64,000 nt of DNA, from positions 620,001 through 684,000 of the forward strand of contig NC_011684.1 of NCBI RefSeq assembly GCF_000150955.2, read 5' to 3'. The position numbers and the translations under genes are program-made. Under the pieces are notes generated by a model. It searched no databases. It saw nothing but the letters and a program-made list of their open reading frames with translations, and was not told where the DNA came from. This stretch comes from Phaeodactylum tricornutum CCAP 1055/1. Taxonomy: Eukaryota; Bacillariophyta; Bacillariophyceae; Surirellales; Neidiaceae. Of the stretch, positions 47,480-52,868 are shown piece after piece. The stretch's first letter is position 1. Every line of letters starts with the position of its first letter.

Positions 47480-48160
47480 TGTGCTACAGTCTTCCGATGA
47501 CTTTCTAGGCGTCGAAGGAAACCTTTAATTTTCGTGAAGTAAGATCTGTTTTGAAAGCCGACCGTGCTTTTTCTCCCAATTTCACGCCCCATTGTCGCCA
47601 ATGTCGTCGGTCCCGTTGGCCTACGTACCGTACCTGTCCACTGTAACTGTCAGTTACACCTACTACAAGTAGAGCTCTACCTGGTAGTAAGTAGTAAGAG
47701 TTACCGTTGTGTTACAGTCATGGCTAGTCCGGTCGTACTCCTACCAGCGGCAATGACGTCAGCAGTTCGAAGAACATCATCAGCGTTTCCGGTTGGGAAA
47801 CGCAAAACGCTACGCTGCTAGCTCTATCTACGGCGGTAGGTTGATAGGTAGTCCCTTAGTTCCCGCCCGTTCCGTCACAGTCCTTTGCCTCTTACATTTG
47901 CAGTGCCTACTTACGATAACTCACAGTTACACATTGCCATTGAGTTGACTCTGACCGTACCTATCTACCAATTGATTGCTTCGACAGAGTTGCTGCACAG
48001 AACCTCGAGTTAGCTACGTACATACAGTAAGCTCCAGTGACGGACAAACATAGTATCACTGTCAGCATCGTTGCGCTGTCCTGTACTTTCCGTCCGGGCC
48101 CATCTGACTAGGAGCTTTGCAACCGCCACACCGTACAGGTCGCTCACTGGGCTACCGTGT
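47480..48160. other. Head-to-head intergenic region, sterol reductase and SelO
   Basis: About 680 bases rich in TAACTG/CAGTTA words: a perfect palindrome at 47643, GTTACAGTC near 47710, CACAGTTACA near 47923 and TCACTGTCAG at 48056. No gene is called. Confidence 0.5.
47643..47657. promoter_or_regulatory. Palindrome GTAACTGTCAGTTAC
   Basis: Perfect 7-base inverted arms (GTAACTG/CAGTTAC) around one base; two opposed Myb-type cores, 164 bases upstream of the sterol reductase ATG. Confidence 0.45.
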
Positions 48161-50359
48161 ATGTTGCGGGTCTGGATTCCTGCTCAAAGAATGCGTGTTG
48201 GTTGCAGTGCGCGCCATTGGACGACTGCAGCTGCCGCCTTATCTACCTTGGGTTTCGTTTCCTTTCTACCTTCCTCGTTAATCCTGACGACAAGTGCTAC
48301 GACTGCAACTACAGCTATAGCCTTTACCCCACCCTTTGGCATTCCGTATCGCTGGCAGTACCACAACTCCCCGCCTGGAAATAGTATGAGTACGCATGCA
48401 CGTAGTGTGAGCACCACCGTCAGGGCCAGCAGTAGTGGTGCACCTGCTACCGATAAAGACAGCAAGGCTTCGACGACTCCCTCGATACTGCGTGACGTCC
48501 AAGCAGCGTTGGAAAACTCTTGGGTTCGTCAGCTTTCGCCCGAAACTGCCGAGAATTTGAAAAAGTCACGGAAAGCGGAAGGGTTGCCCGATACCGACGA
48601 TAATCGTACCCGGCGTCCCGTCTTTAACGGTCATTACGTCCCGGTCAAACCGACAGGGATTGCCAAACCCCGTCTCGTAATGTACAGTCCCGACATGGCG
48701 GCACAATTACAACTTACACCCGAACAGGTTGCATCGCCAGACTTTGTCGATTGGGTGTCCGGTAATACAGTCTTGGGTGAAACTTGGGCGACACCGTACG
48801 CGCTCTCCATTATGGGGACTCGCTACACCAACAACTGTCCCTACGGAACGGGCAACGGCTACGGCGATGGTCGCGCTATATCTATAGGTGAATTGCACGG
48901 TCTCGAACTTCAGCTCAAGGGTGGTGGCACCACGCCTTTTCATCGCGGTGCTGATGGCCGCGCCGTCTTGCGGTCCAGCATTCGAGAATTCCTCGCCAGC
49001 GAAGCCATGCACTCGTTGAATGTTTCGACTACCCGGGCATTGTCGTTGGTCGTCAGTGAGCTCGACACGATCTCGCGTCCTTGGTATTCGGACAATTCCG
49101 TCTTGCGCATACCAGATATGGATGATCCCCGCTTGGCTCAATACGATACGGAAGAGCGCAAACGAATCATTCAACAACTCAAGGCCCAATCCAAGGCTGA
49201 TCCCAATATTATGGTCCGAGAAAAGACCGCCATTACGTGTCGTGTAGCGACCAGTTTTCTCCGCGTCGGACACCTCGATTTGTTTGCCCGTCGAGTAGAG
49301 CGCACCAGTAAAAACACCGACGGTACCTACGACACCTCCACGTTGGAGTGGAAGGAGTTGGAGGATCTCGTTTGGCATGCGTGCTATCGTGAATATCGGC
49401 ACGCTGCGTACGAACCCTTTCACGAAACACGTGATATTGCCGCGGCTGCTCACGTTTTGTTGAAACAGGCCGCCGACCGCATTGCGGCCATGGTCGCCGA
49501 TTGGGTCCGTGTTGGTTTCATCCAAGGCAATTTTAACGCGGACAATTGCCTCGTGGGTGGTCGCACCATGGATTACGGTCCCTTCGGCTTTCTCGAGTAC
49601 TACCATCCCACGGCGGCCAAGTGGACCGGTAGTGGCGAGCATTTTGGTTTTTTGAACCAACCGTCGGCTGGCTTTGCCAATTTCAAAGTGTTGGCAGAAA
49701 GTGTGGTTCCCGTGATTGCAGCCGCCCACGGTGAACCGTCGAGTAAGATTCTAAAAAATGTTTTGGATGATGCCGCCAAAGTATTCCAAAACAAGGTAGA
49801 CGAGACATTTCGGAAAAAGCTGGGTTTTACTGTCGAGCAAGATATCGGCGATGACGTTTGGGAAGCTTTGGAACCGTTGTTGCGACTTTCGCAAATTGAC
49901 TGGACCCTCTTTTTCCGACAATTGACTATGCTGCTAAAGGACTTTCCCGATTTGTCGTCGGAGGACTATGTTGGAATGCTCTGCGCCTTGGAGGGGAGTG
50001 ATACCGACCGCGAAGGATCAAGTCCGTTCTATGAACCATTGACGCAACAGCTTCGTGCGCGGTGGTTAACATGGATAGAGCAGTGGAGAGTTGCACTTGA
50101 TGCGTGTGGATCCGATACCGATACAATTTTTGAACAGATGCGAACGACCAACCCCAAGTTTGTGCTCCGCGAGTGGATGCTAGTCGATGCGTACACAAGG
50201 GCGGCTGCCGGCGATGAATCTGACATGAGGAAGCTCTTTGAGCTGATTCAGCGGCCGTACGACGAGGGAACAAAAGATGAAATAAATCGATTTTACCGAC
50301 GAGCCTCGGAAGAAGCACTTACGACCGGTGGGACCGCCTTTATGTCCTGATCCAGTTAA
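48161..50359 (+). CDS. SELENOO: Selenoprotein O (SelO protein AMPylase), with Sec codon TGA at 50348
   Basis: 732 residues if TGA at 50348-50350 is read as selenocysteine, giving ...TAFMS-U-S-S before TAA; 729 if it is a stop. SelO is a pseudokinase that transfers AMP to proteins. Motifs: NNCPYGTGNGYGDGRAISIG, LQLKGGGTTPFHRGADGRAV, then LRSSIREFLASEAMHSLNV, VGFIQGNFNADNCLVGGRT and MDYGPFGFLE, with the metal-binding Asn/Asp in place. To my knowledge animal SelO has Sec as its third-last residue, as here. A SECIS-like hairpin lies at 50461-50564. The start was set at ATG 48161, since the frame upstream begins only with TTG. The N-terminus has a hydrophobic stretch ending AIAFTPPFG, which may be a plastid-type or mitochondrial presequence. 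Later Mets could yield shorter forms. Confidence 0.9.
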
Positions 50360-50460
50360 GCGCAAAAAATGGTGTGACTTACATTGACTACACAAATTTC
50401 TCAGTCCGTCACACATGTCCTTGCGCGAATATAAATGCATTGAAAACAAAAAGAAGTTGC

Positions 50461-50564
50461 GCTTACACAGATCAGAGTGAATGAAAGCAAGAGGAAAATC
50501 CATGTCTAAAGCGAAGAATGAAAGCCCTTGCTCGACCAACCTGATAACAACTGTGCAAATTAGC
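50461..50564 (+). promoter_or_regulatory. Candidate SECIS element in the SelO 3' UTR
   Basis: Starts 111 bases after the TGA. The 5' strand has ATGA at 50481-50484, ten bases, then AAAA at 50495-50498, matching the SECIS consensus ATGA-N10/12-AA. The opposite strand has CGA at 50533-50535, so G483/A484 can form the tandem G.A pairs with G534/A535. The upper helix pairs 50486-50493 with 50525-50532 (7 pairs, one A.C mismatch). The lower helices pair ATCAG (50471) with CTGAT (50541) and CACAG (50466) with CTGTG (50551). An outer GCTTA/TTAGC helix has one mismatch. The apical loop is long, about 30 bases. Confidence 0.65.
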
Positions 50565-50673
50565 AACTGACATAAAACGCATCCTCCATCTAACATCTGA
50601 AACCGGCTCAATTCTATATTGTCTTTCATCTTCATATACGTCCGCGACCATAGAAACTTGAAGTGTATCGAGC

Positions 50674-52428
50674 CTAGGGCTCACTCGCTATACTATTCTG
50701 AATCAATCTTTTCCAATGTAATGGTTTTGCCCATATTGAAAAATTTGGTCGTCGAGGAGGCGAAACTGCCGACGAAGAATCAACCAGCGGTGTGCGCGTT
50801 GTATTGGGGTTGCTTGTAGGCCTAGACGTCGTAGCCGGCAAAGCCTGTGGATTTGGCTCGCTGACAGGAAAAGCCACTACTTGAGAGATTGGAGCACCAG
50901 TGGGTTTGTGATTAGGATTGGAGGTTCTCAGCCTAGTGGGTGGTGAGCTATTGATGGAAGCAGACGTGGGCCGAGCGGTGGGAAGGTGAGTGGGATTGCT
51001 AGTAGGCCTCAAAGTTTGTGGCGTGGTCTGGGCTGCGATTGGGAGGAATACATTTGTTTCGAATGCACGAAAAGACTCATCAACGGTCGTACATGTTCCA
51101 TTCCCACTCGAAAATCCCCATTCAAATGCAGTACACGAGTGTACTAACAAAAAATCGTACGCGGCCTTCACTTGAACGATTCCATGGCCGTAGCGCTCGC
51201 TACAGCCTTGAGTCGAATCCTTCTTGTCCGCAGTGTACGCCATGGCAAAGCGGATTTGTTTGTGCGAGCAGCTTGGAAAGTGGCTCCACACCAATGCTGC
51301 TGCTCCCGCAGCAAATGGCGTAGCCATGGATGTTCCTGAATATGTAGCGTAACGATCAGGGGGGACTGTTGACAAGACTCTGCGTCCCGGTGCAGAAAGT
51401 TCAATGTAAGGACCATAGTTTGAGCTGTTCCAGTAGCTACGGTCTTCTTGGACGGCAGCCACAGAGACCACTTCAGGCAATGCAGCTGGGAAAATGGACA
51501 GAGGTGATCCCTCATTACCCGCCGCTGCAAACACAAGAATACCCTGCTCGTCCAAGCGAGAATACAAAGATCTCGTTCGGCTTGTGGCGGCAAGGCCACC
51601 TAGACTGAGACTTACAACTTTTGCACCAGCCAACTTGCATTGCTCAATTGCTTGAATTATGTCGGACTCATACGCTCTACCATCATCGTTAAGCCCTCTG
51701 GTAACAAACAGGGGAATTTCTCCTACTCCACGAATACCGAGATTGTTTTCGATGCGAGCAGCAACTATGCCGGCAGCGTGCGATCCGTGTCCACGGCTAT
51801 CGTCGTACCAGTTCATGACACTGCCATCGACCTGGGAGAATCTGTTCGCCCCGTCCGCGTTATCAGCGTCAAGATCAGGGTGAGTAATATCAACGCCTGT
51901 ATCAACGATGCAAACTGTCACCGGGCTACTTCCAATTGACAATTGGTTTGCCTGAATCATGCTTATCCCGTATGGGATAAGCTCTTGCAGACGACGGTCT
52001 CCTCGATCTACGTATTCCTCTAGATATCCTTGCGCTTCCCAAATACTGTCTTCTTCTACTTGCTCGATGTTTTGGTCTAGCTTCAGATACATAGCGGCAT
52101 GATCATCCGCCTCGATTGCAACAGCATTCTCGTTGTCGAGCTCATTGTAGACCGCGTTGGAAGCATAAATTGCATCGTGCTTCCCTTTTTCATTCCTGTA
52201 AGTGACGATGAGACGCTTCGTTGGTTTCCAATACGACGTCATTTTTTCGTTTCTCCTGGGAGCAGTGAGTGATTCTCCCAAGTCGCGTTGATCCTGCTGA
52301 AGGTCGCTTGGAATCCCAACGTGTCGTTCGAAGTCGTCGTTTGTGCGAAGCATTTCATGCGTTTTTGCAGGTACATCTTTTGCCGAAACTAGAGCGAAAA
52401 AAAGCAATTTGTCCAGGTAAAACCTCAT
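50674..52428 (-). CDS. Secreted subtilisin-like serine protease with Pro/Thr-rich tail
   Basis: 584 residues from the ATG at 52428, which begins a signal peptide (MRFYLDKLLFFALVSA); an in-frame ATG at 52722 would bury it under 98 extra residues. An I9-like propeptide region (KRLIVTYRNEKGKHDAIYAS) is followed by the S8 catalytic domain: Asp in VTVCIVDTGVDITHPDL, His in DDSRGHGSHAAGIVAARIENN, oxyanion Asn in VFAAAGNEGSPLS and Ser in YSGTSMATPFAAGAAAL. A Cys-containing region follows, then a Pro/Thr/Ser tail with repeated PTSNP/PTxxPT units and no membrane anchor. It is probably a secreted or wall-associated protease; the substrate is unknown. Confidence 0.88.
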   Translation of the reverse strand: MRFYLDKLLFFALVSAKDVPAKTHEMLRTNDDFERHVGIPSDLQQDQRDLGESLTAPRRNEKMTSYWKPTKRLIVTYRNEKGKHDAIYASNAVYNELDNENAVAIEADDHAAMYLKLDQNIEQVEEDSIWEAQGYLEEYVDRGDRRLQELIPYGISMIQANQLSIGSSPVTVCIVDTGVDITHPDLDADNADGANRFSQVDGSVMNWYDDSRGHGSHAAGIVAARIENNLGIRGVGEIPLFVTRGLNDDGRAYESDIIQAIEQCKLAGAKVVSLSLGGLAATSRTRSLYSRLDEQGILVFAAAGNEGSPLSIFPAALPEVVSVAAVQEDRSYWNSSNYGPYIELSAPGRRVLSTVPPDRYATYSGTSMATPFAAGAAALVWSHFPSCSHKQIRFAMAYTADKKDSTQGCSERYGHGIVQVKAAYDFLLVHSCTAFEWGFSSGNGTCTTVDESFRAFETNVFLPIAAQTTPQTLRPTSNPTHLPTARPTSASINSSPPTRLRTSNPNHKPTGAPISQVVAFPVSEPNPQALPATTSRPTSNPNTTRTPLVDSSSAVSPPRRPNFSIWAKPLHWKRLIQNSIASEP

Positions 52429-52868
52429 TATAAACTGCGGCAGCAAGTTGAAAACATCAGAGGCATCCGTATTTTGTGAGTATGCTCCCGTGTATTCACA
52501 CCGACGGTTGAGACTTCGAAACGGACGTGCGGAGGAATTTTTGTTTTTTGTGAGAGCATCTCCTGTCGTCCGGCTCGGAAAGAGCATGTGTGTCTGTCGG
52601 TCTGGCCGTTCTTTGGTCACTGGTAAGTGACTGTGACTATGTGACAGCATCAGTGAAAGAGACGTGCGGGACCGGCGTCTGTCGTCGGGTTGCAACTGCC
52701 GAGATGGGATGGACTCGACCATGGCGAACCATAAATAGGCGATGGGAGTGGATACGGCCTAACTGTTAATCCATCTACTACCAGCTTACCTAGCATCATC
52801 GAATAAACTACTCTTCTTCGTAAACTCAAAAAAGTTCCCGTTATCAAAAAGACTGGAAATACCAAAAA

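Follow-up and report, generated by a model that had tools for sequence, protein, structure and literature searches.

The window, by which we mean the whole stretch of 64,000 nucleotides of Phaeodactylum tricornutum CCAP 1055/1 that was analysed (C16:620001–684000 in a genome of 88 contigs and 27,450,724 bases), contains an open frame (48071–50350, plus strand) that a Pfam profile search assigned to SelO (PF02696; E 3.2e-66; 224.4 bits against a cut-off of 22.8). Three in-frame ATG codons, at 48161, 48191 and 48383, are candidate starts. Four features were delineated, with the reading frame counted from the first of these codons:

48161..50359, plus strand: SelO frame, running from the earliest in-frame ATG through the proposed Sec TGA to TAA, from the PF02696 match and from frame and tail.
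50348..50350, plus strand: in-frame TGA, proposed selenocysteine codon, from the TGA of a paralog and from listed relatives with Cys at the aligned place (9/120) or ending just before it (107/120).
50351..50359, plus strand: two Ser codons of the tail and the real stop, TCC AGT TAA; the paralog keeps TCC AGC TAG, and the 9 Cys forms likewise continue with SS after the Cys.
50466..50555, plus strand: SECIS-like hairpin with helix I, ATGA/CGA core, helix II and unpaired AAAA, from the free fold, a descriptor and shuffles, with no Rfam match.

A sequence-only reading of this DNA had proposed that the SelO frame ends ATG TCC TGA TCC AGT TAA, so that read-through would add Sec-Ser-Ser. This was exact to the letter: ATG occupies 50342–50344, TCC 50345–50347, TGA 50348–50350, TCC 50351–50353, AGT 50354–50356 and TAA 50357–50359, and with the TGA read as Sec the C-terminus would be GGTAFMSUSS. 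On the opposite strand, a long convergent frame of 682 aa (50674–52722), subtilisin-like by eye, lies about 310 bases from the SelO stop.

Analysis of the 3′ UTR revealed a hairpin whose helix I is formed by CACAG (50466–50470) with CTGTG (50551–50555) and by ATCAG (50471–50475) with CTGAT (50541–50545). Above these lower stems, ATGA (50481–50484) faces CGA (50533–50535), and helix II pairs AGCAAG (50486–50491) with CTTGCT (50527–50532) and, beyond a bulged A (50492), GG (50493–50494) with CC (50525–50526). The unpaired AAAA (50495–50498) lies ten bases 3′ of the ATGA. The unconstrained minimum-energy fold of 50461–50564 had this SECIS shape (−20.5 kcal/mol, z −2.07; 9/200 shuffles folded as well or better). 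Our own SECIS descriptor required unpaired ATGA or GTGA and GA, helix II, unpaired AA or CC, and helix I. In its strict form it found the hairpin as the sole match in 50359–50673; among 2000 dinucleotide shuffles of this segment only one contained a match as good as the real one, and 28 contained a match at ≤ −14 kcal/mol. The element described by the sequence-only reading, with its ATGA, ten-base spacing, AAAA, CGA and two lower stems, thus folds unforced and is rarely equalled in shuffled UTRs. Two weak points had been conceded for it. The apical loop is indeed long, and the predicted fold places a small extra stem inside it; the A.C juxtaposition we take to be the variable fourth pair of the SECIS quartet.

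Comparison with the eukaryotic SECIS model of Rfam (SECIS_1, RF00031) gave a mixed picture: the ATGA/GA core, helix I, helix II and unpaired AAAA are shared, whereas the apical loop is long and the model matched the window hairpin neither in a wide search nor in a narrow one of 116 bases. Genome-wide, nothing exceeded the cut-off of the same model, the best score being 20.4 bits against 35 and the next 19.1 (loci L006 and L007). Because nothing passes the cut-off although the genome contains further Sec codons, this test has little power here. The covariance-model check suggested for the hairpin came out negative with Rfam SECIS_1, while free folding and the descriptor both recovered the element.

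The descriptor itself is moderately specific. Over the two strands of the window (128 kb) it gave 21 matches at −14 kcal/mol, of which 4, the hairpin included, were as good as the hairpin; its constrained-fold form also gave a second, weaker match at 50944 (−14.2), outside the UTR. Six selenoprotein genes of this genome served as controls: the strict form gave matches behind two of them (GPx2 and the SelM-like gene L037) and none behind GPx1, SelT, the SelM-like gene L038 or thioredoxin reductase. The relaxed form found matches behind four of the six and behind the SelO paralog, with 39/200 background pieces also passing at −20 kcal/mol; its matches at L038 lie only 12–16 bases past the stop, with the 5′ stem inside the coding sequence. 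The constrained-fold form superseded an early version of the descriptor that recovered the window element but gave no match behind the paralog or behind GPx1, GPx2 and SelT. The hairpin exceeds chance expectation; alone it would not be decisive.

These rates bear on an alternative in which the UGA is Sec, with some other 3′ UTR element as the working SECIS and the named hairpin a chance look-alike. The long apical loop would fit that account, as would the finding that some descriptor match (≤ −10 kcal/mol) occurred in 61/2000 UTR shuffles and that the strict form fired in 18/200 window pieces of 630 bases. Against it, the hairpin is the only strict match in the UTR, nearly unmatched by shuffles in quality, and its SECIS shape arises in the free fold without constraints. 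We consider the look-alike account unlikely, and the hairpin at 50466–50555 the probable SECIS.

In eukaryotes, Sec insertion proceeds by a route that involves SBP2, eEFSec and a SECIS hairpin, and a search of the genome revealed genes for this machinery. ARAGORN read the anticodon TCA in both of two tRNA-Sec matches that exceeded the Rfam cut-off. Genes for SepSecS and for SelD, the latter with Cys in its MRCGGCGAK stretch, are present. An eEFSec was named by its best PDB matches (7zjw_E, 5izk_A; E 1.2e-86), and no SelB match passed the NCBIfam cut-off in the genome. One of seven L7Ae-type matches had SBP2 as its sole PDB match (E 1.9e-12) and is an SBP2 relative; one other that was examined is ribosomal eL8. 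A second, partial SepSecS-like sequence lies about 5 kb from the main matches (contig C5, 914004–914586; L018 and L019), one piece of it with an in-frame TGA, and is perhaps a decayed copy.

Sec codons were found elsewhere in the genome in two GPx genes (ASKUGLT and ASKUGKT), SelT (NGUGMK), a pair of SelM-like genes and a thioredoxin reductase whose C-terminus is GGCUG. The SelM-like pair, with CGGU, is nearly identical and lies on separate contigs (C88:22705–22902, L037; C8:7530–7727, L038), with a strict SECIS match behind one only. Neither form of the descriptor finds a SECIS for the thioredoxin reductase (C13:378668–379000, L044).

The same genome contains a paralog of the window gene (contig C19; 57% identity over 623 residues), which ends ATG TCC TGA TCC AGC TAG (L005, 3184–3226) and thus keeps both the TGA and the Ser-Ser. 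The stretch TTT ATG TCC TGA TCC AG[T/C] is common to the two genes, with the last Ser codon silently changed and the real stops different (TAA in the window gene, TAG in the paralog). Around this stretch little is shared: the 20 codons before Phe-Met-Ser coincide in only 3 codons and at 4 third positions, and in the 60 bases past the real stop 12 agree without gaps, which is about chance level. A tail kept amid such diverged surroundings shows the pattern of a translated tail. As had been predicted for ordinary gene models, the public model of the paralog (P0094, P. tricornutum CCAP 1055/1) stops three residues before the proposed end, at ..GGTAFMS. The paralog also has a SECIS candidate (ATGAC/TGAC, −24.4, at about 3312 of L005) that passes the relaxed descriptor only; since the relaxed form fires so often in background pieces, this element is a candidate only.

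Comparison with a wider set of relatives gave a consistent result. A protein search scored 7999 candidates, of which 120 relatives were listed; organism names, where given, were all of diatoms, and most entries were unnamed. The relatives were compared as proteins, an end at the site being taken as Sec, and the codon itself was read in the two genes of this genome. Of the listed relatives, 107/120 end exactly before the Sec position, in [FY][MF][ST], and 9/120 (P0014, P0036, P0039, P0042, P0059, P0066, P0073, P0090 and P0097) continue past it with Cys-Ser-Ser; the remaining 4/120 (P0045, P0064, P0096 and P0113) are incomplete or end otherwise. The comparison of C-termini that had been proposed for the SelO tail thus gave the mixture of ends before the position and Cys-Ser-Ser forms that is expected for a Sec codon. 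In one tree of 117 proteins, from which the four incomplete or otherwise ending ones were dropped and to which the window protein was added, parsimony required at least 7 switches between the Sec-type and Cys states, and Cys forms were neighbours of forms that stop; support for the branches of this tree varies. Diatom relatives whose frames stop at this position on an unrelated codon had been named as an observation that would count against Sec; in the paralog the codon at this place is again TGA, followed by Ser-Ser and a different final stop. As for SelO DNA of other diatoms, a protein query of the viral_contigs collection gave no match, and a DNA pattern for GTAFMS followed by TGA occurred 0 times there and 34 times in genome_contigs, 0/34 of which encode SelO (tblastn, E 1e-3).

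For the probable reading of the SelO TGA as Sec, this comparative evidence is stronger than the hairpin. It also bears on the account in which the UGA is a plain stop, with Ser-Ser codons and a hairpin that are present by coincidence or as relics. The absence of a match to the Rfam SECIS model would suit a plain stop, which is nevertheless very unlikely given the tail kept in a 57% identical paralog despite its diverged surroundings and the Cys-Ser-Ser at the aligned place in nine of the 120 listed relatives. Least likely of all is read-through by a near-cognate tRNA without selenium, which would preserve the Ser-Ser tail too, but under which neither the SECIS-like hairpin and Sec machinery nor the presence of Cys, the usual stand-in for Sec, in all nine listed relatives that continue past the site would be expected.

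We therefore favor, with a probability of about 0.88, the reading in which the UGA at 50348–50350 would be decoded as selenocysteine, with the hairpin at 50466–50555 acting as its SECIS. The earlier suggestion that this SelO is a true selenoprotein is supported by the tail of the paralog, the Cys forms among relatives, the SECIS-like fold and the genes of the Sec machinery. SBP2 would bind the core of the hairpin and recruit eEFSec, carrying Sec-tRNA, to a ribosome positioned at the UGA, and the resulting protein, a presumed kinase-like AMP-transferase, would end ...GGTAFMS-U-S-S. From the codons, the fold and the comparisons together we infer that Sec is probably inserted at this UGA, that the hairpin is probably the SECIS element in use, and that the Sec may have a redox role.

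The predicted structure of the protein was typical of its family. An AlphaFold model built with 62 sequences (48383–50355, the last Ser excluded) had a mean pLDDT of 87.1 and a pTM of 0.88, and its comparison with the PDB gave nine matches to SelO or YdiU entries at E ≤ 0.001 (TM-score by target 0.81–0.84). All four PDB relatives found by sequence are likewise SelO or YdiU; 6iii is titled uncharacterised among the structure matches and YdiU among the sequence matches. The predicted fold is the SelO kinase-like fold, shared by model and by sequence with bacterial SelO/YdiU (6eac, 6k20 and 6iii). The last 7 residues of the model had a mean pLDDT of 49, and the Sec is not placeable in it.

Cysteines that might pair with the Sec differ between SelO groups. 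In E. coli SelO, a disulfide reportedly joins Cys272 and Cys476, linking the terminal Cys to one of the kinase domain in a regulatory bond. In 6eac the FICNHSDH stretch contains a Cys, with Ser in its place in chain 6k20, to which nothing corresponds in the diatom sequence aligned with it, whereas four other cysteines are kept in the diatom group, in NNCPYG (119/119), AITCRV (116/121), HAC (110/121) and NADNC (114/121). Human selenoprotein O belongs to the same family and has its Sec, like the proposed one here, at the third-last position before two Ser residues, but it ends CVTUSS> with a CxxU pair, whereas the diatom protein would end FMSUSS with no Cys close by. Bacterial SelO usually ends Cxx>, according to the available part of PMC3281104, in contrast to the proposed Uxx> of the window gene. 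Other SelO members are described, in the part of PMC12409994 at hand, as AMPylating Ser, Thr and Tyr residues of redox and other proteins, and by analogy the window protein has a putative AMPylation activity.

The presequence of the window protein (48161–48400) reads MRVG...TAIAFTPPF, with a hydrophobic run and an ASAFAP-like TAIAF^TPPF after the second in-frame Met. A Met followed by a hydrophobic run and an AxA[FWYL]-type motif was found in 15/34 proteins, against 2.3 expected from shuffled presequences, in a heuristic test, distinct from a targeting predictor, that was restricted to proteins whose domain is preceded by 60 or more residues (the window protein and 33 relatives). The ASAFAP motif is a mark of diatom plastid proteins in the available text of PMC4329603, and SELO is given as mitochondrial in all studied eukaryotes in that of PMC3281104. 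The presequence hints at plastid or dual targeting. We offer as a tentative proposal, with the odds against it, that diatom SelO could be a Sec-using AMPylase of the plastid, or of plastid and mitochondrion via alternative starts, and not of the mitochondrion alone, in which the Sec would pair with the NADNC Cys beside the catalytic loop and not with the bacterial partner, and in which Sec and Cys would have been exchanged at least 7 times.

Sec in P. tricornutum SELO is already in print: the part of PMC3281104 (2012) available names six SELO sequences with a likely misannotated Sec at Uxx>, of which one is gi 219126041 from P. tricornutum and another gi 224011106 from T. pseudonana. The former is the window gene or its paralog, with no established difference from the window gene. 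The same portion describes a marine SELO branch (branch 1) that usually ends Uxx>, with Phaeodactylum paralogs 58% identical; the window gene agrees with this marine algal and diatom branch in family, probably in species, in the proposed Sec third from the end and in the identity of its paralogs (58% there, 57% here). The main text of PMC3281104 contains 0 mentions of SECIS. SECIS elements of SelO were shown in a green and a red alga, with a T. pseudonana SelO sequence that lacked the region, in the portion available of PMC2375036, and 20 to 44 selenoprotein genes per diatom are reported, with SELENOO among the abbreviations, in that of PMC7539508. Within our partial coverage of the literature, no published SECIS for the window SelO gene was found.

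For the window SelO, the analysis gives a corrected C-terminus and a concrete candidate for the SECIS, and for diatom SelO as a whole it compares Sec-type with Cys forms on a broad scale. The repeated switching between Sec and Cys among close relatives would amount to a natural experiment on the benefit of selenium to SelO.
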